A stretch of DNA of 64,000 nt from Beijerinckiaceae bacterium (GTDB taxonomy: Bacteria > Pseudomonadota > Alphaproteobacteria > Rhizobiales > Beijerinckiaceae). The translations under genes were made by a program, and so were the position numbers. The stretch is from NCBI GenBank assembly GCA_027533425.1, contig JAPZUD010000001.1, forward strand, positions 124,001 to 188,000, given 5' to 3'. Shown here one piece after another: positions 8,373-25,891 of the stretch. Position 1 is the stretch's first letter; each line of letters opens with the position of its first letter. The notes under the pieces were generated by a model. The model saw only the letters and a program-made list of their open reading frames with translations. It was not told where the DNA came from and made no database searches.

Positions 8373-8458
8373 CCCTTCCGGCGCCGGCCGGCAGGGTGCG
8401 CCGGACGGAGCCGTCTCCCCGAATGCACCCGAAGCCGACACCAACAGGAGGCGTCTCC

Positions 8459-9742: not shown

Positions 9743-9752
9743 GCACCGTGGC

Positions 9753-9781: not shown

Positions 9782-9808
9782 ATCTCCTGTTTTCCAAGGA
9801 CCGAGCCC

Positions 9809-10618: not shown

Positions 10619-10692
10619 GGGGGTGAACCGGCGCTATCCGGTATGGACAGCTCTTCCAGAACAAAATCGCGTTGCCGCCGGCGCGGGTGCGG

Positions 10693-10886
10693 CAACCCTC
10701 GATGGCATGAGCCACGCGCGGGTTTTTCGCTCCTTCAAGACCAGCTCCGAGACCAGCCACCGGGCGGCATTGATGGGTACCTGCCACCCGCGCCGCCGTA
10801 CGCTCCGAGTGGCATCAGCTTTGCGCAGCCTCATCCTTGCCGGGGCAGGGGACATTCCGGGATTCTTCTGGTTAGTCTGGCGGCGC
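10693..10886. repeat. dispersed intergenic repeat, copy A (both modules)
   Basis: The 370-bp stretch 10619-10988 has no credible gene. It carries two short modules that recur elsewhere in the window. Module 1 (10693-10745) contains GCAACCCTCGATGGCATGAG and then CCACGCGCGGGTTTTTCGCT; it resembles 30289-30330 and 58024-58060. Module 2 (10843-10886) contains GGGACATTCCGGGATTCTTC and TGGTTAGTCTGGC; it resembles 27609-27655 and 30529-30575. About 100 bp separate the modules here. The copies diverge, so this may be a decayed mobile sequence, a structured RNA or a conserved short peptide; none could be established. Confidence 0.5.
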
Positions 10887-10921
10887 CCTGACAGCACCCG
10901 CCGGGCTGCCCAATGGCAGGG

Positions 10922-10950
10922 TGTAACGAACCGATCTCCTGGGCCGAAAT
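10922..10950 (+). promoter_or_regulatory. ECF promoter upstream of the radical SAM gene
   Basis: TGTAACGA at 10922-10929, 15 bp, then CGAAAT at 10945-10950. The same two boxes with exactly the same spacing occur upstream of the ECF sigma gene (24045-24073, minus) and the flavoprotein operon (14130-14158). The -10 box ends 38 bp before the rSAM start codon. Confidence 0.75.
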
Positions 10951-10988
10951 GAACCACATAGCCCTCTCTGCATTCTGGAAGTGATGCC

Positions 10989-11936
10989 ATGGACCTTGGA
11001 ACGCTCGCCCGAACCAAATTTGTTGATCCCGTTCTGACAGCAAAGGGCGAGCGCCGGGCAAAGGTCGGCCTGAAAGCGTTGGAAACCCTTTGGTTCAACA
11101 CCGGCACCTTGTGCAACATTACCTGCCAGAATTGCTATATCGAGAGTTCGCCGAAAAACGACCGGCTGGTCTATCTGACCCTTGCGGATGTGCGGAGCTA
11201 CCTGGACGAGATCCGCACCGGGAACCTGCCGGTCAAGATGATCGGTTTCACAGGCGGCGAGCCTTTCATGAACCGCGAGATGATCGCGATCCTCGAGGAG
11301 ACCCTTGATCGCGGCTTCGAGGTTCTCGTCCTCACCAACGCGATGCGGCCGATGATGCGCTATCAGAAGGCTTTGAAGCAGATCCGCGAAGCGCATGGCG
11401 GGTTGATCCGGTTTCGGGTGTCTCTGGATGATCACCGGGCTGAAATTCATGATCTCGAGCGGGGCAGGGGCTCGTTCCGGAAAGCGATGGAGGGACTTCG
11501 GTTCCTTTCCCGCGAAGGGTTTCAGATCGAGGTTGCCGGACGGCGTCTCGGTGCTGAACCGGACGAAATCGCCCGTGCCGGCTATCGCACCCTCTTCGCG
11601 GAAGAAGGGATCGGCATTGATTGTGATGATCCGGTACAGCTCGTCATCTTTCCCGAAATGCTCCCGGATGCCGATCCGCCCGAAATCACCGAGGCCTGCT
11701 GGAGCATTCTGCACAAGAGCCCGGAGGATGTGATGTGTGCAACCTCGCGGATGGTCGTGCGCCGGAAGGGGGCGGATCGCCCCTCGGTCCTGGCCTGCAC
11801 GCTGATTGCCTATGACCCCCGATTTGAGCTGGGGCATACCCTTGGCGAGGCGAGCGCGCCCGTCGCCCTGAACCACCGGTATTGCGCAACCTTCTGTGTC
11901 CTCGGCGGGGCGGCCTGTGGTGCCACCAAGGGCTGA
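10989..11936 (+). CDS. radical SAM protein of the rSAM/selenodomain-type island
   Basis: A 315-residue radical SAM enzyme with the iron-sulfur motif CNITCQNC (C42, C46, C49) and the SAM-binding GGEPF, so the AdoMet radical core is intact. A second cysteine group near the C-terminus (C299, C303, C310) suggests an auxiliary cluster or substrate binding. The opening LWFNTGTLCNITCQNCYIES recalls the Cys-rich rSAM proteins linked to the TIGR04282/TIGR04283 transferases (the group containing ArsS), but no clear ArsS C-terminal domain is recognised, so the reaction is unknown. It is monocistronic, behind its own ECF promoter, and convergent with the TIGR04283-like gene. Confidence 0.8.
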   Translation: MDLGTLARTKFVDPVLTAKGERRAKVGLKALETLWFNTGTLCNITCQNCYIESSPKNDRLVYLTLADVRSYLDEIRTGNLPVKMIGFTGGEPFMNREMIAILEETLDRGFEVLVLTNAMRPMMRYQKALKQIREAHGGLIRFRVSLDDHRAEIHDLERGRGSFRKAMEGLRFLSREGFQIEVAGRRLGAEPDEIARAGYRTLFAEEGIGIDCDDPVQLVIFPEMLPDADPPEITEACWSILHKSPEDVMCATSRMVVRRKGADRPSVLACTLIAYDPRFELGHTLGEASAPVALNHRYCATFCVLGGAACGATKG

Positions 11937-11992
11937 TTTCTGCCCGGTTGGCGATCACCCCTTCGCGGAGCACGACGCGTCAGGCACGGCGA

Positions 11993-12026
11993 GCCGGCCG
12001 GAATGCATCAGCAGAATGCGGCCGGC
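11993..12026. terminator. possible hairpin between convergent rSAM and glycosyltransferase genes
   Basis: GCCGGCC (11993-11999) and GGCCGGC (12020-12026) can pair around a 20-base loop that itself repeats GAATGC. It lies in the 240-bp gap between two convergent genes, where a bidirectional terminator is expected, but there is no T-run. Confidence 0.3.
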
Positions 12027-12176
12027 AGGTCCGGCCGCAGGAAACGCATGGCCATCCAAGACTTGGCGAATTCCATCAATGCATCCGTCTGCTCGGGTCC
12101 CCCGGAACGGGACAAGCGGGCCAGCCTCCGGGAAAGACCATGTCTCGCAGGTTGAAGCCGCGACCTGATCGCACTT

Positions 12177-12830
12177 TCATCGATGAAGGAGCGCCTGGCT
12201 GACCGTCAGGCGGAGGTGGTGCCATGTCGTCCGGAACCAGCCGTTCTGCGCGTATTTCCGGGCGCTGGTCTGGATCGTCGCGCCGACCGGGCGAACTGGC
12301 AGACCCAGGCGGTGCGCCTTCCGGACCAGGAGATGATCCTCGCCCGTTGGTGTCCGCTCATCATAGCCTCCGAGGCGGGTAAAAGCCTGACGCGAAAGGC
12401 AGAGCGCCTGATCACCGAACGGGATGCCGAGGCAGCGGGACCGGAAATGCACACCGAGTTCGGTCAGGCGCATGAGGAAGCCACCATCGAAACGGAGGTC
12501 AAAATAGGAGAGGGCCTCCCCATTTTTCAGGCAGGCCTGAAGCGCCTCGACCGCATCGGATGACAGGATCGTATCCGCGTGAACGAACCAGAAATGCCGG
12601 CCGGAGGCCATTTCCGCCGCACGATTCATGCTGGAGGCGCGTGTTCCGCCGCGAGCCAGGATGATCTCGAAGTCTTGCGGCAGACTTTCCAGCAGCCAGA
12701 CAGGACGCACTTCTCCAGTGGCGAGCGGGATGATCACGCTTACGGCGGGCTCCTTCCGCGCGCTCGGCTGGCATCGTTCGAGTTCGACCGGATGCTCCAT
12801 CCTGGCAGGCGCATTGATCACATCGATCAT
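12177..12830 (-). CDS. rSAM/selenodomain-associated transferase 2 (TIGR04283-like glycosyltransferase)
   Basis: A 217-residue GT2-fold transferase starting at ATG 12830, chosen because GAGG lies 6 bp upstream and because the N-terminal beta strand AVSVIIPLATGE follows shortly. The longer open frame upstream has no family match. ARGGTRASSMNRAAEMASG and FVHADTIL (the acidic nucleotide-sugar site) are typical of the TIGR04283 family. FGDQALCLSRQAF followed by GEDHLLVRKAHRLG is the acceptor end. This family is known by its genomic association with radical SAM, a nucleoside phosphorylase and SelD-like domains, now tied to arsenosugar-type pathways. The start is 116 bp downstream of a weaker ECF promoter. 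Confidence 0.8.
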   Translation of the reverse strand: MIDVINAPARMEHPVELERCQPSARKEPAVSVIIPLATGEVRPVWLLESLPQDFEIILARGGTRASSMNRAAEMASGRHFWFVHADTILSSDAVEALQACLKNGEALSYFDLRFDGGFLMRLTELGVHFRSRCLGIPFGDQALCLSRQAFTRLGGYDERTPTGEDHLLVRKAHRLGLPVRPVGATIQTSARKYAQNGWFRTTWHHLRLTVSQALLHR

Positions 12831-12945
12831 CCTTGCCTCTATCCGTGAGCCACTCGGGCCGGTGAACCCGCGATGCCCCAAGCCTGAGCCGTCTGACGCA
12901 GATGCGGTGACGGTTGGACCTTCCGTTGATCTGGCTCCGTTCCCC

Positions 12946-12974
12946 AATACGCAATGCTCAGACGTTTTGTAACA
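12946..12974 (-). promoter_or_regulatory. weaker ECF promoter upstream of the TIGR04283-like gene
   Basis: On the minus strand TGTTACAA (12967-12974), 15 bp, CGTATT (12946-12951). Spacing is identical to the other three sites. The -35 box differs from TGTAACGG at three positions and the -10 from CGAATA at two, so this is a candidate only. The gap 12831-13055 has no gene. Confidence 0.4.
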
Positions 12975-13055
12975 GACACCGTGCAACCAGCAGGAAGGAT
13001 CGACACGCTGCACCAGAATCTCGCTGGCCCTGGACAATGATTGGCCAACGCAAGA

Positions 13056-13982
13056 TCAGATCAACAATTCGGCCCAGCCCTTTAACCTGCGCCTGCCGGA
13101 ACCATCCGATCGTCGAACCTCGCCCTCGATCACCGACATGGCGAAGCCGCCCTTTGTCCAATCCGCCACAGCCTCGAGATGCACCGTCGAGGCTTCCAGT
13201 TGCCATTGTCCGCCGGCATGCGTGAATCCGACCTCCCAGCGGGTCGGCCAACGATAGTCGCGATCCACCAAGGCCTGCATCTCCTTGATGGAAAAACGGA
13301 TCGCGGAGAGAACGCCAGCACCTTCGAAGGTGGCCATCCCGCTTTCACGAGGCGTACCGGGCTGGATCCGTTCGTGGTAGCGGATGTAAAGGTCCTGGTG
13401 ATCGTCCGTCATCAGGTAGAGACCATTGAAATTGGACCAGTTGGCGCCGAAATCACTGGTGAAGCGGTTATATCCTGTCTGCGCAATGAACTCGAAGAGA
13501 ACACGCCCCTTCAAGGTTCTCCCACGCCAACGCATAGTGGCCGGCGCCGCGCCGATCCAGTAATCGCGATCCTCGGTCTGCCGGCGCAAGACCGGAACGA
13601 GCCTGTCGACTGACAACTCGATTCCGTTGGTAGCGCTGGACATGTGGAGGCCGCTCTCGATCGTCCCGCGAAACCGGAAATGCTCGGAATCGGGAATGAC
13701 CAGAAGTTCGCGCCCGAGATTGGGATAATGCGCGCTACCGACAATCGGCACGATCCCGGTGCCTTCGGCATACATCATGATCCAGTGATCGGCGAAAAAC
13801 TGGTCGCCGGTCTGTCCGCGATTATTGTCATGGGCAAGATAGACCGAGCCCTCCGCATCCGATCCCACAAAGGAAAAATAGTCGGAATGGTAGCGCTTCG
13901 TGACCTCGGCCCAAGCCGGATGGCTGGCGCAGACAACGAATCCGGTGCCCAAGCCAAAAAGGTCGCGGCGATTGAATGACAT
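13056..13982 (-). CDS. secreted protein with Tat-like signal, possibly lipocalin-type (CrtC/AttH-like)
   Basis: A 308-residue protein with GGGAGAGG 9 bp before ATG 13982. The N-terminus MSFNRRDLFGLGTGFVVCAS has twin arginines followed by a hydrophobic stretch and AWA, compatible with a Tat signal. The remainder is rich in beta-strand-like aromatic segments such as DHWIMMYAEGTG and YHSDYFSFVG, and in WEVGFTHAGGQW, which recalls two-domain lipocalin proteins of the CrtC/AttH group. The family assignment is uncertain and no catalytic residues are claimed. It is divergent from the eight-gene flavoprotein operon. No convincing ECF promoter was found on its own strand. Confidence 0.55.
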   Translation of the reverse strand: MSFNRRDLFGLGTGFVVCASHPAWAEVTKRYHSDYFSFVGSDAEGSVYLAHDNNRGQTGDQFFADHWIMMYAEGTGIVPIVGSAHYPNLGRELLVIPDSEHFRFRGTIESGLHMSSATNGIELSVDRLVPVLRRQTEDRDYWIGAAPATMRWRGRTLKGRVLFEFIAQTGYNRFTSDFGANWSNFNGLYLMTDDHQDLYIRYHERIQPGTPRESGMATFEGAGVLSAIRFSIKEMQALVDRDYRWPTRWEVGFTHAGGQWQLEASTVHLEAVADWTKGGFAMSVIEGEVRRSDGSGRRRLKGWAELLI

Positions 13983-14129
13983 GAATTGACCTCTCCCTGC
14001 CTGGACAGCAACGATGCCGGCTCATGGGTGTCGCGCAATTCACGTTCTCTCGATCACGGGTTCGCAATAGCGGCGGGGCCAGGTCCAGCGCGTTCACGAT
14101 TGTCTGACGAAGGCGTGAAGCGCTTTGGC

Positions 14130-14158
14130 TGTAACGGGAATTCCGCCAGGCACGAATA
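14130..14158 (+). promoter_or_regulatory. ECF promoter of the eight-gene flavoprotein/glycosyltransferase operon
   Basis: TGTAACGG (14130-14137), 15 bp, CGAATA (14153-14158). It matches the promoter of the ECF sigma gene in every base of both boxes and in spacing. The flavoprotein ATG is 35 bp downstream. Confidence 0.8.
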
Positions 14159-14192
14159 TACTCGCAAGAAACACGAGTTCACAGGAAACCTG

Positions 14193-15671
14193 ATGGCCGG
14201 TGCAACCACTCCATCGCTGCCGCCCAAGCGCCCCGAAATCCGCGGCAACACCCTGCATGCAGATCTTTGCATTCTCGGTGCAGGTTCCGGAGGGCTTTCC
14301 GTCGCAGCGGGTGCCGTCCAGATGGGTGCATCTGTTGTCCTGATCGAAAAAGGCGAGATGGGCGGCGATTGCCTCAATACCGGGTGCGTGCCGTCAAAGG
14401 CCCTGATTGCAGCAGCCCATGTGGCCCACACGCATCGGATCGGCGGCCGGTTCGGCATCCATGGGGCAGAACCGGAAATCCGGTTTCACGAGGTGCATGA
14501 CCATGTCCACGGCGTCATCGGCGCGATTGCCCCGCATGACAGTGTCGAGCGGTTCGAAGGCCTGGGCGTCATGGTCATCAAGGCCGCCGGTCAGTTTGTT
14601 GACGGAGAAACGGTCGAGGCCGGTGGCCGCCGGATCAAGGCTCGCCGCTTCGTGGTGGCGACGGGCTCGCGGGCGGCCGTACCACCGATTCCAGGCCTCG
14701 CAGAAGCTGGTTATCTTACCAATGAAACGGTTTTCGAACTGAAGGAACGTCCCGCGCATCTGATTGTGATCGGTGGTGGACCGATCGGGATCGAGATGGC
14801 GCAGTCCTTTCGCCGTCTTGGATCGGAAGTGACCGTCATCGAGAAGTTCGGGATCCTCGCGAGGGACGAGCCGGAGGCTGTCGAGGTCGTGCGGGCATCG
14901 CTTTCAGGCGACGGAGTGCGTCTTGTCGAAGGCCTTGGCGTCAGCGAGGTCCGACAGGACGATGGCGCGGTTACCGTGACCCTTGATGCCGACAGCCCAT
15001 TTGGCCGGACACTCTCCGGCACACATATCCTTGTTGCGGCTGGGCGGCGTCCGAATATCGAGAGCCTTGGGCTCGACAAGGCCGGCATTGCCGCGACGGC
15101 GAAGGGGATCACCGTCGATGCGCGGCTGATCACCAGCAACCGCAAGGTCTTCGCGATCGGCGATGTCGCCGGTGGCCCGCAATTCACGCATATCGCCGGC
15201 TATCATGCAGGGATCGTCATCCGGAACGCCCTGTTCGGGCTGCCGGCCAAGGTGGATTATCGCGCCTTGCCCTGGGTCACCTATACGGATCCCGAACTCG
15301 CCCATGCCGGGCTCACCGAAGCCGAGGCGCGCAAGGCGGGCCGCACGGTCGAGGTTCTGAACTGGACTTTTGCCCTGAATGACCGGGCGCAGGCGGAACG
15401 GGCAACCGAAGGGCTCGCCAAAGTCATCCTCGGGCCAAAAGGCACGATCCTTGGCGCGACCATTGTTGGCCCACGGGCCGGCGAACTGATTGGCACCTGG
15501 GCATTGGCCATCAGCGCGAGGCTGAAAATCGGAGCGATCGCGGGGGCTGTGCTCCCCTATCCAACCCTCTCCGAAATCTCGAAACGGGCCGCGGGCAGCT
15601 ACTACACCCCGAAGCTCTTTGGCGCCTTCACCCGCCGCGTCGTCGGCCTTGTCCAACGCATCCTGCCCTGA
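14193..15671 (+). CDS. MerA/dihydrolipoamide-dehydrogenase-like FAD-dependent oxidoreductase
   Basis: A 492-residue flavoprotein of the pyridine-nucleotide-disulfide oxidoreductase class I. ATG 14193 follows AGGAAA. It has the FAD-binding LGAGSGG, the redox pair C60/C65 in GGDCLNTGCVPSK, NAD(P) binding IGGGPIGIEMAQ and the second FAD motif FAIGDVAGG. It lacks an N-terminal HMA domain and ends ...VQRILP without the C-terminal cysteine pair of mercuric reductase. At the position of the HxHPTxxE catalytic dyad it reads LPYPTLSE, so the usual histidine is tyrosine. It therefore resembles the uncharacterised MerA-like group that accompanies TVP38 proteins. It is first in an operon driven by the ECF promoter. 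Confidence 0.82.
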   Translation: MAGATTPSLPPKRPEIRGNTLHADLCILGAGSGGLSVAAGAVQMGASVVLIEKGEMGGDCLNTGCVPSKALIAAAHVAHTHRIGGRFGIHGAEPEIRFHEVHDHVHGVIGAIAPHDSVERFEGLGVMVIKAAGQFVDGETVEAGGRRIKARRFVVATGSRAAVPPIPGLAEAGYLTNETVFELKERPAHLIVIGGGPIGIEMAQSFRRLGSEVTVIEKFGILARDEPEAVEVVRASLSGDGVRLVEGLGVSEVRQDDGAVTVTLDADSPFGRTLSGTHILVAAGRRPNIESLGLDKAGIAATAKGITVDARLITSNRKVFAIGDVAGGPQFTHIAGYHAGIVIRNALFGLPAKVDYRALPWVTYTDPELAHAGLTEAEARKAGRTVEVLNWTFALNDRAQAERATEGLAKVILGPKGTILGATIVGPRAGELIGTWALAISARLKIGAIAGAVLPYPTLSEISKRAAGSYYTPKLFGAFTRRVVGLVQRILP

Positions 15672-15682
15672 ACGAGGCCATC

Positions 15683-16408
15683 ATGTCGCTCTCATCCCTT
15701 CTGAAGGATCGCCGGCTCTGGCTGGGGCTCGTTGCTCTTGTGGCCTTCCTTCTGCTCCGCTGGTCGGGCCTCGCCTCCTATCTGTCGCTCGACACGCTGA
15801 AGACGCATCGGGAAGCGCTCACAGCCTGGGTCCAGGGGAGCCTCCTCGTCGCGGGTCTCTCCTATGTCGCGGTCTATGTCGTTGCCGTCGCCTTTTCTTT
15901 CCCGGGCGCGGTGTTCCTGACCCTGTCCGGCGGTTTTCTCTTCGGCGCGGCGTTGGGCACGCTGTTGACGGTGACAGGTGCGACGATCGGCGCAACGGTG
16001 ATCTTCATCTTCGCCAAGGCCATTTTTGGTGAGAACGCACTGGATCGCTTCGGGGCTCCGGCTGCGAGGCTGGCTGAAGGAATCCGGCGCAATGCCGGGG
16101 CTTATCTGCTCGTTCTGCGCCTTGTCCCGCTGTTTCCCTTCTTCCTCGTCAATCTCGTACCAGCCTTTGTCGGCGTGAAGATCCCGACCTATGTGGCGAC
16201 CACCTTTTTCGGCATCATTCCCGGAACAGCTGTTTTCTCGCTTGCAGGAGCCGGCCTTGGCTCTGTCCTTGATCAGGGCGGTGCCATCACGCCGGGATCG
16301 ATCCTGACGCCCGAGATCATTGCCGGGCTTGTCGGGCTGGCAGCCCTTTCACTCGCGGCAATCCCCCTGCGCAAACGGTTCGAAGCTCGAAGCGGGCAAG
16401 CAACCTGA
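15683..16408 (+). CDS. TVP38/TMEM64 family membrane protein
   Basis: A 241-residue integral membrane protein of the VTT (SNARE-associated/DedA-like) family. Several membrane segments are visible. The core FSFPGAVFLTLSGGFLFGA and the RNAGAYLLVLRLVPLFPFFL stretch with VPAF are the family's diagnostic re-entrant region. Members act in lipid or solute movement across the inner membrane; the precise role is unknown. It is 11 bp after the MerA-like gene, a pairing seen in many proteobacteria and cyanobacteria, and precedes the DUF547 gene by 38 bp. Confidence 0.88.
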   Translation: MSLSSLLKDRRLWLGLVALVAFLLLRWSGLASYLSLDTLKTHREALTAWVQGSLLVAGLSYVAVYVVAVAFSFPGAVFLTLSGGFLFGAALGTLLTVTGATIGATVIFIFAKAIFGENALDRFGAPAARLAEGIRRNAGAYLLVLRLVPLFPFFLVNLVPAFVGVKIPTYVATTFFGIIPGTAVFSLAGAGLGSVLDQGGAITPGSILTPEIIAGLVGLAALSLAAIPLRKRFEARSGQAT

Positions 16409-16446
16409 CGATGCTCTTGCCGACACCTGTTCCGGAGGCATTCCTG

Positions 16447-17268
16447 ATGACCACCCTGTCTTTCCCGCTTGATCGCCGCCGCATCGTTGGCCTCGCCGTC
16501 GCACTTGTTTGTTCACCGGGATCCTTTGCAAGGGCCCAGACCGATCCCGACGCGCCTTATGACGGTCTGCTGAAGCGCTATGTGAAACCGAGCCCGGATG
16601 GCATTGCGCGTGTCGACTATGCGGCCTGGCGCGCCAATGCGGCTGATCGGGCTGCTCTGGAGAGCTACATCACCGAGATGGCGCAGCGCCGTCCTTCCGG
16701 GATGGCGCGTGGCGAAGCCATGGCCTACTGGGGTAATCTCTATAATGCCATCACACTCAAGGTCATCATCGACCGCTATCCCGTCGCCTCGATCCGCGAC
16801 ATCAAGAGCGATTCCTGGCTCGACCCCAAGGCCTATACCGGTCCGTGGCGCCAGCCGAGGGTGACCGTCGAAGGGCGCCGCCTGTCGCTCGATGATATCG
16901 AGCATGCCATCATGCGCCCTGCATTCAAGGATCCGCGCATCCACTACATCGTCAATTGCGCGTCCTATGGCTGTCCCAATCTGATGAACCGGGCATGGCG
17001 CGCCTCGACCCTCGAAGCAGACCTTGAAGCCGGAGCGCGCGCCTTCATCAACCATCCCCGTGGCGTAACCATCCTTCCTTCGGGAGCGCTGAAAGTGTCG
17101 TCGATCTACAAATGGTTCATCGAGGATTTCGGGGGCAATGATGCCGGCCTCATCGCCCATTTCCAGGCCTATGCCGAACCGGCGCTGAAACGGCACCTTT
17201 CGACATCGCCGCGGATCGCAGAAGACGATTACGACTGGTCGCTCAACAGCGTCCGCCCGATATCCTGA
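16447..17268 (+). CDS. DUF547 domain-containing secreted protein
   Basis: A 273-residue protein. ATG 16447 lies 8 bp after GGAGG; an in-frame ATG 12 codons earlier has no such site. A signal peptide runs to about residue 31 (cleavage after ARA). The DUF547 signature is present: AYWGNLYNAITLKVIIDRYP, then IHYIVNCASYGCPNL with two cysteines and a C-terminal SSIYKWFIEDFGG. The fold is thought to be papain-like: C, H and polar residues are present, but activity is undemonstrated. The location is periplasmic. It is the third gene of the ECF-driven operon. Confidence 0.85.
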   Translation: MTTLSFPLDRRRIVGLAVALVCSPGSFARAQTDPDAPYDGLLKRYVKPSPDGIARVDYAAWRANAADRAALESYITEMAQRRPSGMARGEAMAYWGNLYNAITLKVIIDRYPVASIRDIKSDSWLDPKAYTGPWRQPRVTVEGRRLSLDDIEHAIMRPAFKDPRIHYIVNCASYGCPNLMNRAWRASTLEADLEAGARAFINHPRGVTILPSGALKVSSIYKWFIEDFGGNDAGLIAHFQAYAEPALKRHLSTSPRIAEDDYDWSLNSVRPIS

Positions 17269-17316
17269 CCGGTCGGCGCGTAAAGGCGAGGCCGCAAGGA
17301 GTTGACGAGGCTCGGC

Positions 17317-17898
17317 ATGAAACCAGGAACACTGGCAATCGGATTGGGGGCGGGCACGCTCTTGATGGCTGCTGCTGCATTTGGCCTGCTGTTTGTCCTT
17401 GCGCCGAACCTCCGCCCATGGACATTGGATCCAACCGATCCCCGCATCACGCTGGAGGATGTCGAGCGCGAAGTCATCCAACGTTACCCCGTTGACGATG
17501 TGCTGCCTTCGACACTGGCGGCGATGGTCGCCAAAGGCGATGTCACCCTTCTTGATGTGCGCACGGAAGAAGAGTTCGCGTCGGGCCACCTTGCCGGCGC
17601 GATCCGGGTTGAGCCGGGGAGCTCAGCGGAAGAGATCCTGCGACAGCATCGGGCCCACCTGAAGGGCCGCCCTGTTGTGTTCTATTGTGCCGTCGGCGTG
17701 CGTTCATCGCAGGTCTTGATGCAGTCTTTACGGGAACTCACCCCCCATACCGACGGTCGCCTTTACAATCTTCGCGGCGGTGTCTTCCGTTGGGTTGCCG
17801 AGGGGCGCCCGCTGGTCAGTGGAAACAAGCCGGGAAAGGCTCATCCCTATAACGAGGATTGGGGACAGCTCCTTTCAAGGACCGTGCCTGGTCCATGA
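17317..17898 (+). CDS. membrane-anchored rhodanese-like protein
   Basis: A 193-residue protein. ATG 17317 follows GAGG by 6 bp; a TTG five codons earlier touches the ribosome site and is unlikely. Residues 5-30 form one membrane anchor. The rhodanese domain (about 60-180) has LLDVRTEEEFASGHLAGA and the active-site loop CAVGVR with C124. Single-domain rhodaneses move sulfur or selenium as persulfide or perselenide, which would fit a selenodomain pathway, but this is inference. It overlaps the GT-C gene by ATGA. Confidence 0.82.
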   Translation: MKPGTLAIGLGAGTLLMAAAAFGLLFVLAPNLRPWTLDPTDPRITLEDVEREVIQRYPVDDVLPSTLAAMVAKGDVTLLDVRTEEEFASGHLAGAIRVEPGSSAEEILRQHRAHLKGRPVVFYCAVGVRSSQVLMQSLRELTPHTDGRLYNLRGGVFRWVAEGRPLVSGNKPGKAHPYNEDWGQLLSRTVPGP

Positions 17899-19319
17899 GC
17901 ATGGAATTTCCAGCTGCCGCCGCTCGCGACCGCTCTTCGGGTGATTCTCGCTTCGTCCTTCTCTTGGCGGCGCTGGCCGGCGCTGTCATCGCGCAGATTG
18001 CCATCGCTCTCGTCTTCGGCTCGATGGCGGGCTCTGCGCGGGATTCATGGATTGTGTCCATGCCGCTGTTCGTGCTGCTGGCCAGCTCGGGTGGCTTTGT
18101 CCTCTGGACTGTCTGGCACGCTCGCGCGCTGGCCTTTTCGCCGCGGGTATGGATGGCGATTGTCCTTGCAGGGCTTCTGATGCGGCTGCCCTATTTCGGC
18201 ACCGGCCCCATGCTGGAGGATGATCATTTCCGCTATCTCCTCGACGGTGCGATGGTCGCAAACGGGTTCAGCCCCTACGCCCTGTCCCCGCAGGATCTTC
18301 TCAATGGGTCTCATGGTGCCAGTGCCGGACTGGTTGCTGCCGGGCGCCAGGTGATCGAGGCAATCAATTTTCCGGATCTGCGCTCGGTCTATCCCGGGAC
18401 GGCACAGCTTCTTTTTGCGATCGCCCATGCGGTGATGCCATGGGATGTGGATGGCATCAGGCTCATTGTTCTCTGCGCGGAAGGAATCACCGCGCTCCTG
18501 GTCTGGCATGTCCTGAAGATTTCGGGACGCCCGGCCCACGGCGTCATGCTTTACTGGTGCAATCCGTTGATGGCCTTCTCCCTTACAGGGCAGGGCCATA
18601 TCGATGCGGCTCTCGTGCCGGCGGTTTTCGTCGCGCTTCTTGCGGGTTGGTATGGCAGAAGCCTTGTTGCAGGTATGGCGCTGGGAATGGCTGTCGGGGT
18701 GAAGCTCTGGCCCATTCTGCTGGCACCGCTTCTGGCTCGGGTGCTCTGGCCGAACAGGCAGGCGCTTGTCGTGTTCGCGCTTGGGCTTGCGATCACGAGC
18801 GCGATCCTTTGCGCCCCTCTGGTTCTGGCGAGCCTGTCTCCGCATGCCGGGCTGGCTGCCTATGCCGGCGGCTGGAGTGTCAATAACGCCCCGTTCGCCT
18901 GGCTCTCCTACGGGGCCTTGCACCTGATCGGGCCGACCACCGGCGAGCAAGCCCTGCGCCTGACGCTGGCAGCCCTCGGCATCAGCCTGAGCTTGCTGGT
19001 CGCATTGAAGAGGCCGGAAGATCCCGGGAGGCTGTTCGGGTCGGCAGCGCTGCTGGCCGCTTCCGTGTTCTACCTCTCGCCCGCTCAATTCCCATGGTAC
19101 GCAGTCTGGTTCCTGCCCTTGGCTCTCGCTGGGGGCAGATGGGCGCTTGCCGCCGCGACCATCGGATTGCCGGTCTATTTCCTGTTCTTCCCCCTGGCAG
19201 CGGAGGGCCAACGTGACATTCACACCTATGGCCTCGCTGCCCTGCACGTGATGCCCGTTCTGATGGTCAGCGTTCTGGTGCACAGATCGTCACGGCAAGG
19301 TGGGGTGTCATGGGTTTGA
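17895..19319 (+). CDS. GT-C-type polyprenol-sugar-dependent glycosyltransferase (DUF2029/GT87-like)
   Basis: A 474-residue polytopic membrane protein with roughly a dozen hydrophobic segments. ATG 17895 overlaps the rhodanese stop. After the second or third segment it has MLEDDHFRYLLDGAMVANG, the acidic periplasmic loop typical of GT-C enzymes (catalytic D near DDxxRYxxDG), then FSPYA and YPGTAQLL. Such enzymes transfer mannose or similar sugars from a polyprenyl phosphate on the outer face of the inner membrane. The next gene is a polyprenol-phosphate-sugar synthase-like GT2, a natural donor-maker for it. The two genes overlap by 10 bp. Confidence 0.78.
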   Translation: MSMEFPAAAARDRSSGDSRFVLLLAALAGAVIAQIAIALVFGSMAGSARDSWIVSMPLFVLLASSGGFVLWTVWHARALAFSPRVWMAIVLAGLLMRLPYFGTGPMLEDDHFRYLLDGAMVANGFSPYALSPQDLLNGSHGASAGLVAAGRQVIEAINFPDLRSVYPGTAQLLFAIAHAVMPWDVDGIRLIVLCAEGITALLVWHVLKISGRPAHGVMLYWCNPLMAFSLTGQGHIDAALVPAVFVALLAGWYGRSLVAGMALGMAVGVKLWPILLAPLLARVLWPNRQALVVFALGLAITSAILCAPLVLASLSPHAGLAAYAGGWSVNNAPFAWLSYGALHLIGPTTGEQALRLTLAALGISLSLLVALKRPEDPGRLFGSAALLAASVFYLSPAQFPWYAVWFLPLALAGGRWALAAATIGLPVYFLFFPLAAEGQRDIHTYGLAALHVMPVLMVSVLVHRSSRQGGVSWV

Positions 19320-20026
19320 ACGGGATGAGGATCGGGGTTGTGATCCCGACACGGAATGAAGCCGGAGCCCTGCCGACGGTTCTGGGCGGCATGCCCGGTT
19401 TCGTTGATGCCGTTGCCATCGGCGACTTTCAGTCAAGCGATGGCACGCCGGAAATCGGGCGCCGGGCCGGAGCCATTGTGGTGGACGTGTCCGGGCCGGG
19501 TTATGGCCGGGCCTGCCTCGAGGCGATCCGGGCGCTGCCGCCCATCGATATCCTCGTTTTCGTCGATGGCGATGCTGCGGATGACCTTTCGGCCATGGCG
19601 CGTCTTGTGGAGCCGATTCTGAAGGGTGAAGCGGTCTTGACGCTCGGTTCGCGGGTGCTTGGCCAGCGGGAACGCGGTGCGCTGACTCCGCAACAGATTC
19701 TCGGGAACTGGCTGGCCTGCACCCTGATCAGGTGGATCTGGGGCAAACGCTTTACCGATCTGGGGCCCTTCCGGGCGATCACCCGAACAGCTTTCGACAG
19801 TCTTGCAATGGCCGATATGAACTATGGCTGGACCGTTGAAATGCAGGTCAAGGCGGCAAGGGAGGGGCTTCTCACGCGCGAGATCCCGGTCGATTACAGG
19901 CGGCGGATCGGGGTTTCAAAGGTCTCGGGCACCCTGAACGGCACCCTTCGCGCCGGCAGCAAGATCCTGTGGGTGATCGGCCGCGAAGCTATGGGTTCAG
20001 GCCGCTTCCGGAGGCGTCCTTCATGA
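19310..20026 (+). CDS. dolichyl/polyprenyl-phosphate mannose synthase-like GT2
   Basis: A 238-residue GT-A glycosyltransferase. The nucleotide-sugar region IGVVIPTRNEAGALP is followed by GDFQSSDGTPEI, and the metal-binding site is VFVDGDAADD. It lacks C-terminal membrane helices. The GSRVLGQRERGALTPQQ and RTAFDSLAMADMNYGWTVEM segments match the short DPM1-like subgroup. It probably charges a polyprenyl phosphate with a hexose on the cytoplasmic side. It overlaps genes on both sides (10 bp, and ATGA), so it is translated as part of the tightly coupled operon. An alternative start at 19325 (MRIGV) cannot be excluded. Confidence 0.8.
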   Translation: MGLNGMRIGVVIPTRNEAGALPTVLGGMPGFVDAVAIGDFQSSDGTPEIGRRAGAIVVDVSGPGYGRACLEAIRALPPIDILVFVDGDAADDLSAMARLVEPILKGEAVLTLGSRVLGQRERGALTPQQILGNWLACTLIRWIWGKRFTDLGPFRAITRTAFDSLAMADMNYGWTVEMQVKAAREGLLTREIPVDYRRRIGVSKVSGTLNGTLRAGSKILWVIGREAMGSGRFRRRPS

Positions 20027-20739
20027 GCGCGGCCCGGACAGGATCGGACTGGATCGGTCTCGGCTTGATGTGCAAGCCACCGAGACCAGGAACCAGCAAG
20101 ACCAGGCTGGCAAGAACGATCGGGGCTGATGCGGCAGCGCGCCTGTCACGGGCGTTTCTGGAGGATTGCGCACGGTCGGCGGCGGAGGCGGCCGCGATTG
20201 CCCGCCTGAAGCCCCGCGCCTTTTTCCGGCCCGAGGATGGCCGGCAGGAACTCGCCGACATTCTCGGTCCGGCCTGGCCCTTGACCTTTGCCGATGCCGG
20301 GGATCTCGGCGCCACCATGATCGAGGGGCTGGCACAGTTGCTCGAGGAATGTCCCGCCGGCGCCATGATCATGGGAGCGGATCTGCCACTCATGGGCAAG
20401 GCCGTGATTGCGGAAGCGGCAGAGGCCCTGCGCGCCAGCGACCCCGATGGCGTGGTCATCGTTCCGAGTGCAGATGGCGGTTATTGCCTGCTCGGTGTTC
20501 GTTCGCTCGCCGCTGCAAGGGCCCTCTGCGCGCCCATGGCCTGGAGCACGCCAACCGTTCTCGCGGAGACATGCCGCCGTGCCGATAGCGCCGACCTCGT
20601 TGTCCAGAGCCTTGCCGAACAGCGGGACATTGACGAGCAGGCCGATCTTGACTGGTTGAAAGCCGAACTGGCTCGCGATGAAGCTGCGGCGCCTGCCACA
20701 CGGCGCGCTGTCACTGCGCTCGAAGCAAGGGCACCGTGA
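20023..20739 (+). CDS. rSAM/selenodomain-associated transferase 1 (TIGR04282-like, CofC/MobA fold)
   Basis: A 238-residue nucleotidyl/glycosyl-transferase-like protein starting at ATG 20023, which overlaps the previous stop (ATGA) and has GGAGG upstream. CKPPRPGTSKTRLARTIG is the NTP-binding loop of the family (usually KxPxPGxxKTRL). MIMGADLPLMG holds the acidic metal site, and VIVPSADGGYCLLGV is the hallmark DGGYxLLG. TIGR04282 was defined by genomic partnership with a radical SAM enzyme, TIGR04283, a phosphorylase and a selenodomain protein, all of which are present within 12 kb here. The reaction is not established. Confidence 0.82.
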   Translation: MSAARTGSDWIGLGLMCKPPRPGTSKTRLARTIGADAAARLSRAFLEDCARSAAEAAAIARLKPRAFFRPEDGRQELADILGPAWPLTFADAGDLGATMIEGLAQLLEECPAGAMIMGADLPLMGKAVIAEAAEALRASDPDGVVIVPSADGGYCLLGVRSLAAARALCAPMAWSTPTVLAETCRRADSADLVVQSLAEQRDIDEQADLDWLKAELARDEAAAPATRRAVTALEARAP

Positions 20740-21869
20740 TGGACCGTCACCTCGTCCTCGTCGGTGGCGGGCATGCGCATGTCCAGGTTATCCGTGCCCT
20801 AGCAGAACGCCCCGAGCCCGGCTTGCGGGTGACCTTGGTGACTGATCGGCTGCTCACGCCCTATTCGGGCATGCTGCCCGGGCATGTCGCGGGTTTCTAC
20901 AGCCACGACGACATGCATATCGACCTCGAAAGGCTGGCCCGGGTATCCGGCATGGCGTTGGTCCGCTCGGCTGCTTGCCGCATTGACCGCCAGAGCCGGT
21001 CGGTGATGACGGAAGAGGGCACCGTTGTTCCCTTCGACCTCCTGTCGCTCAATGTCGGCATTACGCCGGATCTTTCAGGGATTGCAGGCGCGGACAGGCA
21101 TGGCATCGCCGTCAAGCCGATCAGCAGCTTCCTCGGAAGGCTGGAGAGGGTGCTGGACGACGCGTCCCGCCCGGATGGGCCACGCCGGATCATTCTGGTA
21201 GGTGGAGGGGCAGCCGGAATTGAACTCGCGCTTGCGCTGAAGGCACGGCTCCGTTCGATGGATGCCGCCGGGCGGCCCTTCTGGATCGCGATTGCGACAG
21301 GCAACGGCCTCGTGCCGAGCTTGAATGGCGGCGTTCAGCGCCGGACGGGCGCGGCGCTGGCTCGCCATGGTGTCACGGTGCTGGATGGTTTCCGCGTCGC
21401 CGAGATCAACTTTGATGGGATCCGGTCGCAGGATGGCCGCTTTGTCGCCGCCGATGCGGTGCTCCTGTCAACGGCTGCTCGGGCGCCGACCTGGCTTCGG
21501 GAAACCGGCCTGCCGACCGATTCCAGTGGCTTTGTGAAGATCGCCCAAACCCTGACGGTCGTGGATGATCCTGCGATCTTTGCGGTCGGCGATTGCGCCA
21601 CGGTCATTGACAACCCGATGCCGAAAGCAGGGGTATTCGCGGTCCGGCAAGGTGCAGCTCTTACGGAGAACATCCGTCGGACATGCCGGAGCATGCCGCT
21701 TCTTCCGCACCATCCGGATCGGAACTTTCTCGCGATCCTGATGACCGGTGATGGATCCGCAATCGCAGGCCGCGGTGGTTGGTTCGCGCTTGAGGGGGCC
21801 TGGGTCTGGCGCTGGAAGGACTGGATTGACCGCCGCTTCATGCGGCTTTTCTCCGATTTCCGGCGTTGA
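20739..21869 (+). CDS. SelD-associated FAD/NAD(P)-binding oxidoreductase (Nterm_to_SelD type)
   Basis: A 376-residue flavoprotein starting at ATG 20739, one base inside the previous TGA (TGATG). LVLVGGGHAHVQVIRALAE and TPYSGMLPGHVAGFY, then ILVGGGAAGIELALAL and IFAVGDCATV, are the signature of the TIGR03169 family. That family is named because it is often fused to the N-terminus of selenide, water dikinase. Here no SelD domain is fused and none is seen in the window. It is related to sulfide:quinone/NADH-II-type oxidoreductases, so a chalcogen or quinone substrate is plausible. It is last in the ECF-driven operon and convergent with mtnP. Confidence 0.82.
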   Translation: MDRHLVLVGGGHAHVQVIRALAERPEPGLRVTLVTDRLLTPYSGMLPGHVAGFYSHDDMHIDLERLARVSGMALVRSAACRIDRQSRSVMTEEGTVVPFDLLSLNVGITPDLSGIAGADRHGIAVKPISSFLGRLERVLDDASRPDGPRRIILVGGGAAGIELALALKARLRSMDAAGRPFWIAIATGNGLVPSLNGGVQRRTGAALARHGVTVLDGFRVAEINFDGIRSQDGRFVAADAVLLSTAARAPTWLRETGLPTDSSGFVKIAQTLTVVDDPAIFAVGDCATVIDNPMPKAGVFAVRQGAALTENIRRTCRSMPLLPHHPDRNFLAILMTGDGSAIAGRGGWFALEGAWVWRWKDWIDRRFMRLFSDFRR

Positions 21870-21908
21870 TCGGGTGGCACGTCCCTGACCGGGATTCAGG
21901 TCCTTCGG

Positions 21909-22778
21909 TTATCGCAGGACACGCCCGGCAACGGCATCCAGTTTTGCGACCAGGGCCGGATCGCGCGCATCCGGTGCGGTGATAATGGCATAATCGAGCG
22001 CCCTGTGCGAGCCAGCCGGGCATTCTTCCCGCTCTGCCGGGAAATCTGCCGCCAGTTCAGCCAGAACACGCCGCGCTGCCAGCGTGTTTTCATGCACCTG
22101 ATGGATGACCAGTTCGACGCTGACATGCGCATGATCGGGGTGCCAGCAGTCAAAATCAGTGACCATGGCGCACATGGCATAGGTGATCTCGGCTTCCCGG
22201 GCGAGCTTGGCTTCGGGCATCGATGTCATGCCGATGATGTCGTAGCCGAGGCCCTTGTAGAAGAGGCTCTCGGCACGGGTCGAGAATTGCGGACCTTCCA
22301 TGCAGACGGCGGTTCCCCCCTCGCGAATGGTGATCCCGGCCCTTCGTGCAGCCTCGGCTACACGGTGGCGGAGTCTGGGCCCGAAAGGATCCCCGAAAGC
22401 GACATGCGCGACGCAGCCATTGCCGAAAAAGCTGCTCTCGCGGGAAAATGTGCGGTCAACCAGTTGATCGGGCACAACAAACATGCCCGGTGCCAGATCT
22501 TCCCTGTACGAGCCAACCGCCGAAAAGCTGACAATATCCGTGACGCCAACCCGCTTGAGCGCATCGATATTCGCACGATAGTTGATCCCGCCGGGGGAAA
22601 GGCGGTGCCCGTCGCCATGGCGGGGCAGGAAGACCAATTCGGTCGAGCCGATCCGCCCGAACCGCAATGGAGCCGAGGGGTTCCCCCACGGCGTCTGGAC
22701 CATCTCCTCCCGTCGATCTTCCAGTCCCGGCAGGTCATAGAGACCTGAACCACCGATCACGCCAAGCCGAGCCGTCAT
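21909..22778 (-). CDS. mtnP: S-methyl-5'-thioadenosine phosphorylase-like nucleoside phosphorylase
   Basis: A 289-residue PNP/MTAP-family phosphorylase starting at ATG 22778; the upstream open frame shadows another gene. It has the N-terminal IGGSGLYDLPGL, phosphate-binding LPRHGDGHRLSPGGINYRAN, FSAVGSYREDLAPG, the VCMEGPQFSTRAES substrate loop and the D-x-D of TDFDCWH (an aspartate favours adenine nucleosides). In general it releases adenine and 5-methylthioribose-1-phosphate from MTA. In rSAM/selenodomain islands a phosphorylase of this family is a core partner and may act on a SAM-derived 5'-modified nucleoside. No other methionine-salvage gene is nearby, which supports that second role. 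Confidence 0.85.
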   Translation of the reverse strand: MTARLGVIGGSGLYDLPGLEDRREEMVQTPWGNPSAPLRFGRIGSTELVFLPRHGDGHRLSPGGINYRANIDALKRVGVTDIVSFSAVGSYREDLAPGMFVVPDQLVDRTFSRESSFFGNGCVAHVAFGDPFGPRLRHRVAEAARRAGITIREGGTAVCMEGPQFSTRAESLFYKGLGYDIIGMTSMPEAKLAREAEITYAMCAMVTDFDCWHPDHAHVSVELVIHQVHENTLAARRVLAELAADFPAEREECPAGSHRALDYAIITAPDARDPALVAKLDAVAGRVLR

Positions 22779-22840
22779 GGGATTGTCCTTGTATTTCCGG
22801 GTGTAAACGGCGTGGTCGAAGCCGTTGCTGGATCCGAGTT

Positions 22841-23476
22841 CTACCAGCGAAGCCAACGGTGGCCCGCCAAGGAGCCGCCAAGAGCCACGATGATGGCGGC
22901 AAGCGAGTACCAGACGGCAACGAAGCTCGTGCTGTCTTCCGTGCAATACAGGCCATAGGCCATGATGGCCAATCCACCGGAGGCAAGACCGGCGAGCGCT
23001 CCGGTTACCGCCGGATGGGATGGTGCACCCGCTCGCAAGATCCACAGGGATGTGACCAGCGGGATGGCTGCCAGAAGCGGAATGACGGTCAGGCATGAAA
23101 GGATGCTCTTGCCCAGCAGTCGCATGAAGAACCCGTTCTGCCCCCATGATGCAAGATCAAGCGCCACGAGTAGAAACAGGGGCAGAAGAACAGCAAAAAT
23201 GGCAACAAGCCCCTGATCGATCGAAGCCTCCGGGCGGAGCAGCGTGCGGGCGCAACGAACCGCAGAAACCGCGATGACGAGGCCAAGCCCGGTCTTGACG
23301 AGTGTCGGCATGGCGCCTGTCGATGTCAGATCGGTCCTGATCCCCACCAGGCCGAGAAACATGATCCCTGTGACAAGGGCTGCGACAGGCAGCCAGATCA
23401 GGATGTGTGTGCGGGCCTTCGGGGGCTTGACGGCAAGATCCTCGGCCAGCCAGTCGATCAGTTTCTCAGTCTGCAT
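22841..23476 (-). CDS. NrsF/DUF1109 family anti-sigma factor
   Basis: A 211-residue membrane protein with six predicted helices. ATG 23476 overlaps the sigma gene by 11 bp, the usual sigma/anti-sigma coupling. The cytoplasmic N-terminus (LIDWLAEDLAVKP) is the expected sigma-binding arm. C128 and C178 are 50 residues apart, matching what is recalled of the conserved cysteine pair in the Caulobacter NrsF protein that senses heavy-metal stress; C75 is an extra cysteine. It is inferred to hold the ECF factor at the membrane until metal or oxidative stress. The gene for the phosphorylase follows on the same strand after 62 bp. Confidence 0.82.
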   Translation of the reverse strand: MQTEKLIDWLAEDLAVKPPKARTHILIWLPVAALVTGIMFLGLVGIRTDLTSTGAMPTLVKTGLGLVIAVSAVRCARTLLRPEASIDQGLVAIFAVLLPLFLLVALDLASWGQNGFFMRLLGKSILSCLTVIPLLAAIPLVTSLWILRAGAPSHPAVTGALAGLASGGLAIMAYGLYCTEDSTSFVAVWYSLAAIIVALGGSLAGHRWLRW

Positions 23477-23987
23477 GTCGGCTCTTCCCGAACATTTTCC
23501 CAAGCCGTTTCAGGGAACGGTGAAGTGCAACCCGCACGGCACCATCCGTCATGCCCAGTTCGGCACCGACTTCGGCAGAAGAACGGCCGACCATGATGAT
23601 CTGTTCGACAAGTTTACGCTGCTTTGCATCCAGCGCATTGAGGATCGTCACGCTGTCGAGTGTGCTGTCAGGCCTCTCATCCGGGGCGGCCAGCGATTCA
23701 CTCATCGTGTCGATATCAACGTCTACCCTGAAGCCGGACCTGCGAAGGGCGTCGATCGCCTTGTAACGCGCGACGGCATTGAGCCAGGGCAGGAAGGGAA
23801 GGGCAGGGTCCCACGTCGCACGCTTGAGATGAACGGCCAGCATCGTTTCCTGCACGATGTCTTCAAGGTCCGCCAGGCCCCGCCCGGAACGCATGAGCAG
23901 GGGGCGCACGATGCCCCGAAGATGCGGCGCAACTGCAGCAAGAAGCGTCTTGTAGGCGCCCATATCACCTTCAAGGGCCAGACGCAT
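23466..23987 (-). CDS. RNA polymerase ECF sigma factor
   Basis: A 173-residue sigma-70 family protein. Region 2 is seen in DLEDIVQETMLAVHL and the -10 recognition stretch LPFLPWLNAVARYKAIDALR. Region 4 is seen in EVGAELGMTDGAVRVALHR. ATG 23987 is chosen: GGAG lies 7 bp upstream, while the longest in-frame ATG (24065) falls inside the spacer of the gene's own promoter and cannot be in the transcript. A GTG at 24032 would give 188 residues with only a few bases of leader and remains possible. Autoregulation is indicated by the promoter at 24045-24073. It is co-transcribed with its NrsF anti-sigma. Confidence 0.88.
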   Translation of the reverse strand: MRLALEGDMGAYKTLLAAVAPHLRGIVRPLLMRSGRGLADLEDIVQETMLAVHLKRATWDPALPFLPWLNAVARYKAIDALRRSGFRVDVDIDTMSESLAAPDERPDSTLDSVTILNALDAKQRKLVEQIIMVGRSSAEVGAELGMTDGAVRVALHRSLKRLGKMFGKSRHAD

Positions 23988-24044
23988 CAGGGTGCTCCAT
24001 TCCTCTTCTTTTCCTGTCGGTCGTTTCTGCACGCGACTTCCTGA

Positions 24045-24073
24045 TATTCGGACCCAGACCCTCATCCGTTACA
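24045..24073 (-). promoter_or_regulatory. autoregulatory ECF promoter of the sigma/anti-sigma operon
   Basis: On the minus strand TGTAACGG (24066-24073), 15 bp, CGAATA (24045-24050). Both boxes are identical to those before the flavoprotein operon at 14130. It is 57 bp upstream of the chosen sigma start. The motif is close to the GTAAC...CGAA promoters recalled for NrsF-partnered sigma factors. Confidence 0.8.
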
Positions 24074-24259
24074 GGATAGCGGGACAACCCAACAAATTGC
24101 TTTTTTGTGATCCGACAGGGTTGCCTTCCATCACGGTAAAGTGCGCTTTGGGGCAGGACAGTTGATTGGGAATTGGAGCCCATTGCCTCGTATGAGTGAC
24201 GGCGGCTCTCTTTGAGCCATCAGTCGTCCGGTTCCAATCGACATCAAAAGGCCCTTGCC

Positions 24260-24817
24260 ATGTCCGATATCATCCCCGTCATGCCGCGACTGCCGGCACC
24301 GGATCTCGAGGTTGTCCTGTCCGGAGCCGGCGGGGCGCATTTCTCGCTGGCCGATGAGGCGCCCGAAACCTTCACCCTGGTTGTCTTCTATCGGGGCTAT
24401 CACTGCCCGATCTGCCGCACCCAGCTGAGAGAGCTCGAGGCCAACCTTCCGGAGTTCGAGAAGCGTGGCGTTTCTGTCGTGGCGGTTTCCTCCGATTCCG
24501 GAGAGAGGGCTGCCAAGGCAAAGACAGAATGGAACTTGCCGCACTTGCGCCTTGGCTATGGCCTTGACCTGAACATGGCCCGGCGCTGGGGCCTCTATGT
24601 CTCGGCGGGACGGGGCGCAACCTCGATTGGTGTCGAGGAGCCGGCCCTGTTCTCGGAACCGGGCCTTTTCCTCATCCGCCCGGATCACACGGTCTATTTC
24701 GCCTCCGTCCAGTCGATGCCCTTCGCTCGCCCCCATTTTACCGACATTCTCGGGGCGATCGATTTCGTGGTCGCGAAATCATACCCGGCGCGGGGCGAGG
24801 TCGCGTCCCTTGTCTGA
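24260..24817 (+). CDS. peroxiredoxin-like (AhpC/TSA) protein
   Basis: A 185-residue thioredoxin-fold protein starting at ATG 24260. VVFYRGYHCPICRTQLRELE has the peroxidatic position as CPIC, so a CxxC pair replaces the usual TxxC of peroxiredoxins. Beyond it are VSVVAVSSDSGE and the PGLFLIRPDHTVYF strand. It resembles the 'peroxiredoxin-like family' proteins of alphaproteobacteria, with a probable peroxide or disulfide reductase role. It is divergent from the sigma gene. No ECF-type promoter was found upstream, so membership in that regulon is not claimed. Confidence 0.8.
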   Translation: MSDIIPVMPRLPAPDLEVVLSGAGGAHFSLADEAPETFTLVVFYRGYHCPICRTQLRELEANLPEFEKRGVSVVAVSSDSGERAAKAKTEWNLPHLRLGYGLDLNMARRWGLYVSAGRGATSIGVEEPALFSEPGLFLIRPDHTVYFASVQSMPFARPHFTDILGAIDFVVAKSYPARGEVASLV

Positions 24818-25700: not shown

Positions 25701-25891
25701 ACCAATGCACGTGCCGTGAGCCGGCCTTCGCTGCTTTGGGGTGAGCAACGTCGTAGACAGATCGAACCTTGATACCCTCGTGATCTCGAACTGTCTGGAG
25801 CCGAAGAATTGATCCGCCGAGCCTGTCGGGGTCGCGGGAAACATTCCGATCCGGCCTCGTAACCGCTCACGGACCTTCGGAACAAACCCGG

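Follow-up and report, generated by a model that had tools for sequence, protein, structure and literature searches.

What do the genes between positions 10922 and 24817 of a 64,000-nucleotide stretch of Beijerinckiaceae bacterium DNA make, where a radical S-adenosylmethionine (SAM) protein, putative sugar transferases and an extracytoplasmic function (ECF) sigma factor stand close together? In the following, this whole stretch, which is part of contig C11 in a genome of 3.75 Mb, is called the window. We assign a probability of roughly 0.6 to the reading that the genes form a mobile island for a variant arsenosugar-type pathway, with its own ECF/NrsF switch, a radical SAM protein other than ArsS and a removable polyprenol-sugar cassette. 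Judged by the comparisons below, the island is real and coherent, probably co-regulated, and tied to arsenosugar clusters by its content. By the family tests, it does not belong to the ArsS pathway. No account of such an island was found in the open PMC literature, as judged by titles and the starts of abstracts; passages of PMC8801600 describe for Aromatoleum a 4.6 kb island, predicted to be mobile, that carries moaA and a TIGR04282 gene, and PMC13077682 has among its entries two arsenosugar glycosyltransferase genes.

The main part of the island is an operon of eight genes on the plus strand (14193-21869), which, with the starts chosen here, are separated by 2-33 bp at four junctions and overlap at the other three. 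In order, it encodes a MerA/lipoamide-dehydrogenase-like flavin adenine dinucleotide (FAD) oxidoreductase below the MerA cut-off (14193..15671), a TVP38/TMEM64 (VTT) membrane protein (15683..16408) and a DUF547 protein (16411..17268), both assigned by family scan, a rhodanese with an N-terminus that looks hydrophobic by eye (17302..17898; related to 'rhoda_near_glyco', 70.5 bits vs. a cut-off of 145), a GT-C (GT87-like) glycosyltransferase (17904..19319; Pfam 20.9 bits, below the cut-off of 25), an AglJ/DPM1-like GT2, i.e., a putative polyprenyl-phosphate hexosyltransferase (19310..20026; AglJ 114.9 bits vs. 325), a CofC-like TIGR04282 transferase (20023..20739) and a TIGR03169 (Nterm_to_SelD) flavoprotein (20736..21869). 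The last two exceed their cut-offs (136.5 vs. 134 and 414.3 vs. 310 bits), i.e., the TIGR04282 component of an ArsS-type pathway is present by its own threshold. The operon is preceded by the radical SAM gene (10989..11936, plus strand, 315 amino acids) and a TIGR04283-like GT2 gene (12177..12830, minus strand). Behind it, on the opposite (minus) strand, lie the genes for S-methyl-5'-thioadenosine phosphorylase (MTAP, 21909..22781), an NrsF-type membrane anti-sigma factor with Cys137 and Cys187 (22841..23503) and the ECF sigma factor (23466..24065; sigma70-ECF 58.8 bits, cut-off 42.9). The NrsF gene follows and overlaps the ECF gene, and MTAP is found 59 bp behind NrsF.

An earlier note, made from the letters alone, had named this gene set, and reading frames and family scans confirm all listed genes. 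Some of its labels shift. What it called MTAP-like exceeds the MTAP cut-off (471.1 vs. 437 bits). The name NrsF-type holds for the Pfam model (144.7 bits, cut-off 26.8) but not at the level of the NCBIfam equivalog (77.6 vs. 300). The TIGR04283-like protein is related to its family, yet falls below the cut-off and lacks the acidic motif discussed below. Finally, compared to its extent of 10922..24817, the stretch shared with genomes G199 and G212 is slightly longer (10922-25701).

With regard to the switch, the window contains three sites of the form GTAAC-N17-CGAA compared to 0.10 expected, and none of 100 shuffles reaches three. They stand before the radical SAM gene (10923..10948, plus strand, 66 bp before its start), the operon (14131..14156, plus strand, 62 bp before the FAD gene) and the ECF gene (24047..24072, minus strand, from the motif search). 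No site is found in the window for spacers of 12-16 or 18-22. Three motif patterns were tried, of which the two looser ones match the window 6 and 17 times. According to passages of PMC3511200, the Caulobacter sigma-F promoter is GTAACC-N16-CGAA, its targets answer to chromium and cadmium, and holding them at basal level requires two cysteines of NrsF. All three window sites have G instead of C as sixth -35 base and fall within the two substitutions allowed there. The annotated ECF start (24065) falls within the promoter site, which probably places the true start downstream of 24040, with the ATG at 23987 as one option. Among seven distinct NrsF genes, Cys137 is kept in all and Cys187 in six, the seventh (locus L043) having His.

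The sites recur in relatives. Exact sites precede the FAD and ECF genes in loci L201-L203 of the host genus, the radical SAM gene in L202, L203, L074, L075 and L076 (in L201 its start is outside the locus) and the TIGR04283-like gene in L202 and L203. In family f20, all three loci have an exact site at the radical SAM gene and a one-mismatch site at the FAD gene (L032, L033, L076). Even in genomes G101 and G184, where the FAD operon is separated from the radical SAM gene, each of the two keeps a site (with one mismatch for FAD). We consider this strong evidence for one predicted regulon in the host genus and f20. Control of the island by its own NrsF-type ECF system, as claimed in the earlier note, is thus supported at the level of promoter sites, i.e., by the three sites and their recurrence.

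Mobility was assessed by a 19.9 kb DNA search against 17 genomes of the genus, and absences hold at that sensitivity. G199 and G212 contain the whole stretch 10922-25701, G205 contains much of it, and G202, G210 (cut by a contig end) and G201 contain parts. The FAD-VTT pair is seen in G211 and G213, the latter having in addition 96 bases of the TIGR03169 gene. MTAP occurs alone in G209, and 24260-25737 alone, besides flanks, in G206; the remaining genomes show no operon DNA. The right end (24260-25737) may be ordinary chromosome, as G206 has it without carrying the operon. On the left, the flank 8001-10617 is on a different contig from the island in G199 and G212, so that the island sits at different places. 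By these alignments, the island runs from 10922 to about 24070 (the shared stretch reaching 25701), moves between sites and is inherited as a block in the genus. The island of G202, tested from radical SAM to ECF, misses only the rhodanese, GT-C and GT2 genes and the gene at 13056-13982. As it matches otherwise, the rhodanese/GT-C/GT2 part is a removable cassette; in G101 and G184 this part is found away from the core.

The window copy itself has lost genes. In G199, a PhnC/PhnE/PhnD-type importer and a metallophosphoesterase are encoded between the radical SAM and TIGR04283-like genes. The 240 bp gap of the window keeps three pieces of that stretch (102, 97 and 40 bases with 81%, 78% and 85% identity, aligned to L201:681-782, 3637-3733 and 4093-4132), i.e., remnants of PhnC-type ATPase and metallophosphoesterase genes, which are both whole in G199. 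On this alignment, the window copy is a shortened form of the island with a deletion scar at 11937..12176. We also considered MTAP and ECF-NrsF as housekeeping neighbours, which is weakened by the distribution of MTAP in the genus: it is found in 4/11 genomes on the protein level and 7/17 by DNA, in six of the latter with other island genes and in G209 without.

To place the island in a wider context, 199 genomes of the host's order were scanned per family. The radical SAM set (76 genomes) leaves out G171 and G194 with 35% identity, and the TIGR04283 set combines 74 genomes over the cut-off with seven under it (at least 118 bits: G000, G019, G086, G089, G090, G101, G184), G140 with 118.6 bits being excluded. 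Radical SAM carriers hold TIGR04282 in 71/76 and TIGR04283 in 72/76 cases, which bears out the claimed link between the core families; TIGR04282 and TIGR04283 are held jointly by 77 of 81 genomes each. Within families f1, f2, f20 and f35, radical SAM and TIGR04282 are either both present or both absent in every genome sampled. The 15 discordant genomes (5 with radical SAM without TIGR04282, 10 the reverse) are all outside these families, and several of their assemblies are incomplete. Where loci were picked for the TIGR04282-TIGR04283 pair, the two are at most 2 kb apart in 20/20. The proposed tie between the polyprenol-type GT2 and the core also holds on the genome level, with TIGR04282 present in 32 of the 34 genomes with GT2 orthologues. 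Their GT2 neighbourhoods (n=34, some contigs being short) contain GT-C in 33, rhodanese in 15, TIGR04282 in 4 and FAD and VTT in 2 cases. For selD, on the other hand, we see no association with radical SAM (odds ratio 1.7, p 0.5): it is over its cut-off in 10/199 genomes and under it in 71/76 radical SAM carriers.

The link to arsenic comes from loci elsewhere. We compared the best 80 of 576 related places from a TIGR04283 scan, among which ArsS is found in 28, plus one weak match. The Ramlibacter locus L129 combines NrsF, ECF, ArsS, VTT-FAD in one frame, TIGR04283, TIGR04282, TIGR03169 and MTAP, and a Hydrogenophaga locus (L156) has the same families. In Synechococcus (L143), TIGR04283, GT2, GT-C, DUF547, VTT-FAD and ArsS are joined by an ArsM-like methyltransferase, which scores only 163.8 at a cut-off of 263, and by an ECF/anti-sigma pair of a different kind. 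Since these three loci carry island families, the company of the island is that of arsenosugar clusters. The earlier note had presented the additional families as new partners of the core, which does not stand, given that ArsS loci in other phyla already carry several of them. In terms of the neighbourhood search it proposed, overlapping subsets occur at these loci, but large sets are rare. As side observations, VTT and FAD oxidoreductase form one open frame of 717-721 amino acids in L129, L143 and L117, where the window has two adjacent genes. A PA0069 radical SAM protein and RNase HII beside TIGR04283 were read as chromosomal location and not as pathway members.

ArsM is likewise distributed in accordance with an arsenic link. 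Scoring at most 12 candidates per genome over the order, matches with E<=1e-40 are found in 27/76 radical SAM carriers vs. 2/123 other genomes, and 13 of the 14 genomes with ArsM over the cut-off are carriers. One carrier, G001, holds about 30 kb from its radical SAM orthologue a locus (L043:805-13173) with ECF, NrsF, an ArsM-like methyltransferase, ArsR/SmtB, thioredoxins, a DsbD-like protein, a Pst-type transporter, GT2, GT-C and rhodanese; the methyltransferase is 63% identical to that of the Synechococcus ArsS cluster. By its gene content, L043 is an island of the arsenic type, in a genome that also carries the radical SAM orthologue. As background, oxo-arsenosugar synthesis involves adenosylation of arsenic by a radical SAM enzyme, as stated in a passage of PMC12159101 that credits the ArsS work of Cheng 2021, and in Synechocystis ArsS and ArsM act together in the first steps (PMC8552651).

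From these findings, the following mechanism can be proposed. A thiol-reactive metal or metalloid would disturb the two NrsF cysteines, as suggested by Caulobacter, and thereby free the sigma factor, upon which the promoters at the three observed sites would fire. The radical SAM enzyme would then, in analogy to ArsS, transfer a 5'-deoxyadenosyl group to an arsenic (or similar) acceptor. Because ArsM is not found in the genome, this acceptor would enter already methylated or stay unmethylated. MTAP may take off adenine and leave a substituted ribose-1-phosphate, which TIGR04282 and the TIGR04283-like protein, the latter without its acidic motif, could convert to a glycoside. The FAD/VTT pair and the TIGR03169 flavoprotein may give redox or membrane steps, and the optional rhodanese/GT-C/GT2 cassette would, going by its families, add a polyprenyl-phosphate-linked sugar step at the membrane. 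Transfer of the final product to a polyprenyl carrier with use outside the membrane, as put forward in the earlier note, is hypothetical.

A number of findings weigh against an arsenosugar-type product, among them the radical SAM protein. It scores 62.6 bits for ArsS (TIGR04167, cut-off 300) and 90.9 bits for its best named family Rv1681 (cut-off 380). ArsS membership is rejected, as the protein is under the cut-off, ArsS exceeds its cut-off in 0/199 genomes of the order (the earlier note had suggested looking for arsS elsewhere in the genome) and the tree separates them: 28 ArsS proteins form one clade (100/99) and the window family another (91/92). The latter joins, with weak support (95/66), Rv1681-type proteins and two ArsM-like fusions; the tree contains very long branches, and its deep joins may be false according to a warning of the tool. 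The window protein is nearer to Rv1681 than to ArsS. Next, the TIGR04283-like protein has 141.5 bits at a cut-off of 182, i.e., the TIGR04283 component of the ArsS pathway is absent by threshold. The acidic motif [DE]GxSxD is missing here and in 6/6 orthologues, in contrast to 95/101 other TIGR04283 stretches where it is present; five of the remaining six carry D[AS]GSxD. Given this loss, its role may have changed, and it may be no normal glycosyltransferase.

The same holds for distribution and regulation. The earlier statement that the window has neither arsM nor selD extends to the whole genome, where the best ArsM match has 57.8 bits vs. 263 and selD shows no match at E<=1e-20. No ArsM match at E<=1e-40 is seen in 49/76 carriers. 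Among the best 80 TIGR04283 loci, ECF/NrsF homologues occur in 2, MTAP in 4, GT2 in 2, GT-C in 1 and rhodanese in none, and 12/20 radical SAM neighbourhoods in the order are without another island gene within about 10 kb. The full form GTAACC-N16-CGAA occurs 0 times in the window, the TIGR04283-like gene of the window has no site at up to one mismatch, and an exact site precedes radical SAM in only 3/20 loci, all from f20. Finally, the Fisher tests assume independent genomes.

These points leave room for a product without metalloid. That is, the radical SAM/TIGR04282/TIGR04283 trio could make, e.g., a modified nucleoside-derived sugar, with the metal-stress sigma factor recruited since the product protects against metals or oxidants. 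Besides the missing ArsM, this is favoured by the PhnCDE-type importer in G199 and by L064, where Rv1681 stands with Rv1680-like, Rv1679-like and TIGR04282 proteins and neither ArsS nor ArsM is found among six proteins scanned. Against it speak the partners common to ArsS loci, the enrichment of ArsM among radical SAM carriers and the two fusions from other phyla, in which a distantly related radical SAM domain is followed by an ArsM-like domain within one protein: L183:1565-4219 from an Elusimicrobia metagenome-assembled genome (MAG; 885 amino acids) and L175:6981-9995 from a Geobacter MAG (1005 amino acids). Their radical SAM domains show 27-33% identity over about 155 residues, the ArsM-like domains of L175 and L183 score 192.5 and 230.8 bits (cut-off 263), and both adjoin TIGR04282, TIGR04283 and VTT; FAD is also beside L183, with no FAD match in L175. 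On balance, we regard a non-metalloid product as the strongest of the alternatives but still unlikely, with a chance of about one in four.

It is improbable that the genes are chance neighbours, i.e., a general sigma-F stress regulon next to unrelated sugar genes. Island parts are indeed found apart elsewhere and 17/20 other radical SAM loci lack the exact site, but the separated FAD operon and radical SAM gene of G101 and G184 both keep a site, TIGR04282 follows both radical SAM and GT2 in the profile, and conserved co-inheritance and co-regulation are largely seen for the genus and f20. A selenium or other chalcogen sugar, at which the old 'selenodomain' family name hints and for which TIGR03169 speaks by being named as domain before SelD and by co-occurring with it in 5/10 SelD genomes, is the least probable product and is rejected, as selD has no match in the genome and is not associated with radical SAM. 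The chalcogen half of the 'metalloid- or chalcogen-containing sugar' put forward earlier is thus disfavoured.

Returning to the arsenosugar-type reading, a bolder version appears unlikely to us, slightly more so than a non-metalloid product: a second, ArsS-independent radical SAM family would form carbon-metalloid bonds in this order, without a resident arsenic methylase, and the product would reach the cell surface via a polyprenyl-phosphate sugar step under a metal-sensing sigma factor. If so, the Rv1681-type locus would represent a remote offshoot of this chemistry. More generally, the island offers a testable function for a radical SAM family conserved in 76/199 sampled genomes of one order, places the TIGR04282/TIGR04283 'arsenosugar' transferases in an ArsS-free setting, suggests where a polyprenol-sugar step may join the pathway and, via a known promoter motif, predicts a thiol-reactive metal or metalloid as inducer.

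Some further features complete the picture. The gene at 13056..13982 (minus strand) encodes a 308 amino acid protein with a signal-like N-terminus, judged by eye, and no match in the Pfam and NCBIfam scans; it is 92% identical in G199 and was not found in the islands of G202 and G205. At 24212..24817 (plus strand), an AhpC/TSA-type (SelL-related) redox protein belongs to the shared stretch, its island membership being unsure as most of it is also in G206 without the operon. Just left of the island (10651-10890) are two stretches, each about 100 bases long, with matches of about 69-85% identity at many positions in the genomes of the genus and at two more in the own genome, probably as a dispersed repeat family. 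The C-terminal region of the Geobacter fusion matches the selenoprotein MbdU family with 135 bits, under the cut-off. L064:9724-17979, which also holds a SPASM radical SAM protein, may provide a context for loci of the Rv1679-1681 type.

How does the island compare with known systems? The Rv1679-Rv1680-Rv1681 loci share a radical SAM core related to the window protein (E about 1e-13, tblastn), and in L064 Rv1681 (over its cut-off), Rv1680-like and Rv1679-like proteins are found beside TIGR04282, a PNP-type phosphorylase, GT-C and GT2. In contrast, the window protein forms a separate clade below the Rv1681 cut-off, and no Rv1679- or Rv1680-like match is found among the island proteins scanned. 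Both in L078, from the window's radical SAM family, and in the Rv1681-type L172, a single open frame combines a metallophosphoesterase with a radical SAM domain; thus, the two probably belong together. With Caulobacter sigma-F/NrsF, the island has in common the ECF and NrsF pair, two cysteines 50 apart (C131/C181 there), promoter core and spacing, and a promoter of the switch itself. It differs in that its predicted targets include a biosynthetic island, in the G at the sixth -35 base and in an NrsF below the NCBIfam equivalog. Compared to the ArsS/ArsM clusters of cyanobacteria and Burkholderiales, the island has a different radical SAM family, no ArsM, a TIGR04283-like protein without acidic motif and an extra rhodanese. 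What it shares with subsets of these clusters are TIGR04282, TIGR04283, VTT and FAD (in one frame there), DUF547, GT2, GT-C, TIGR03169, MTAP and ECF-NrsF.

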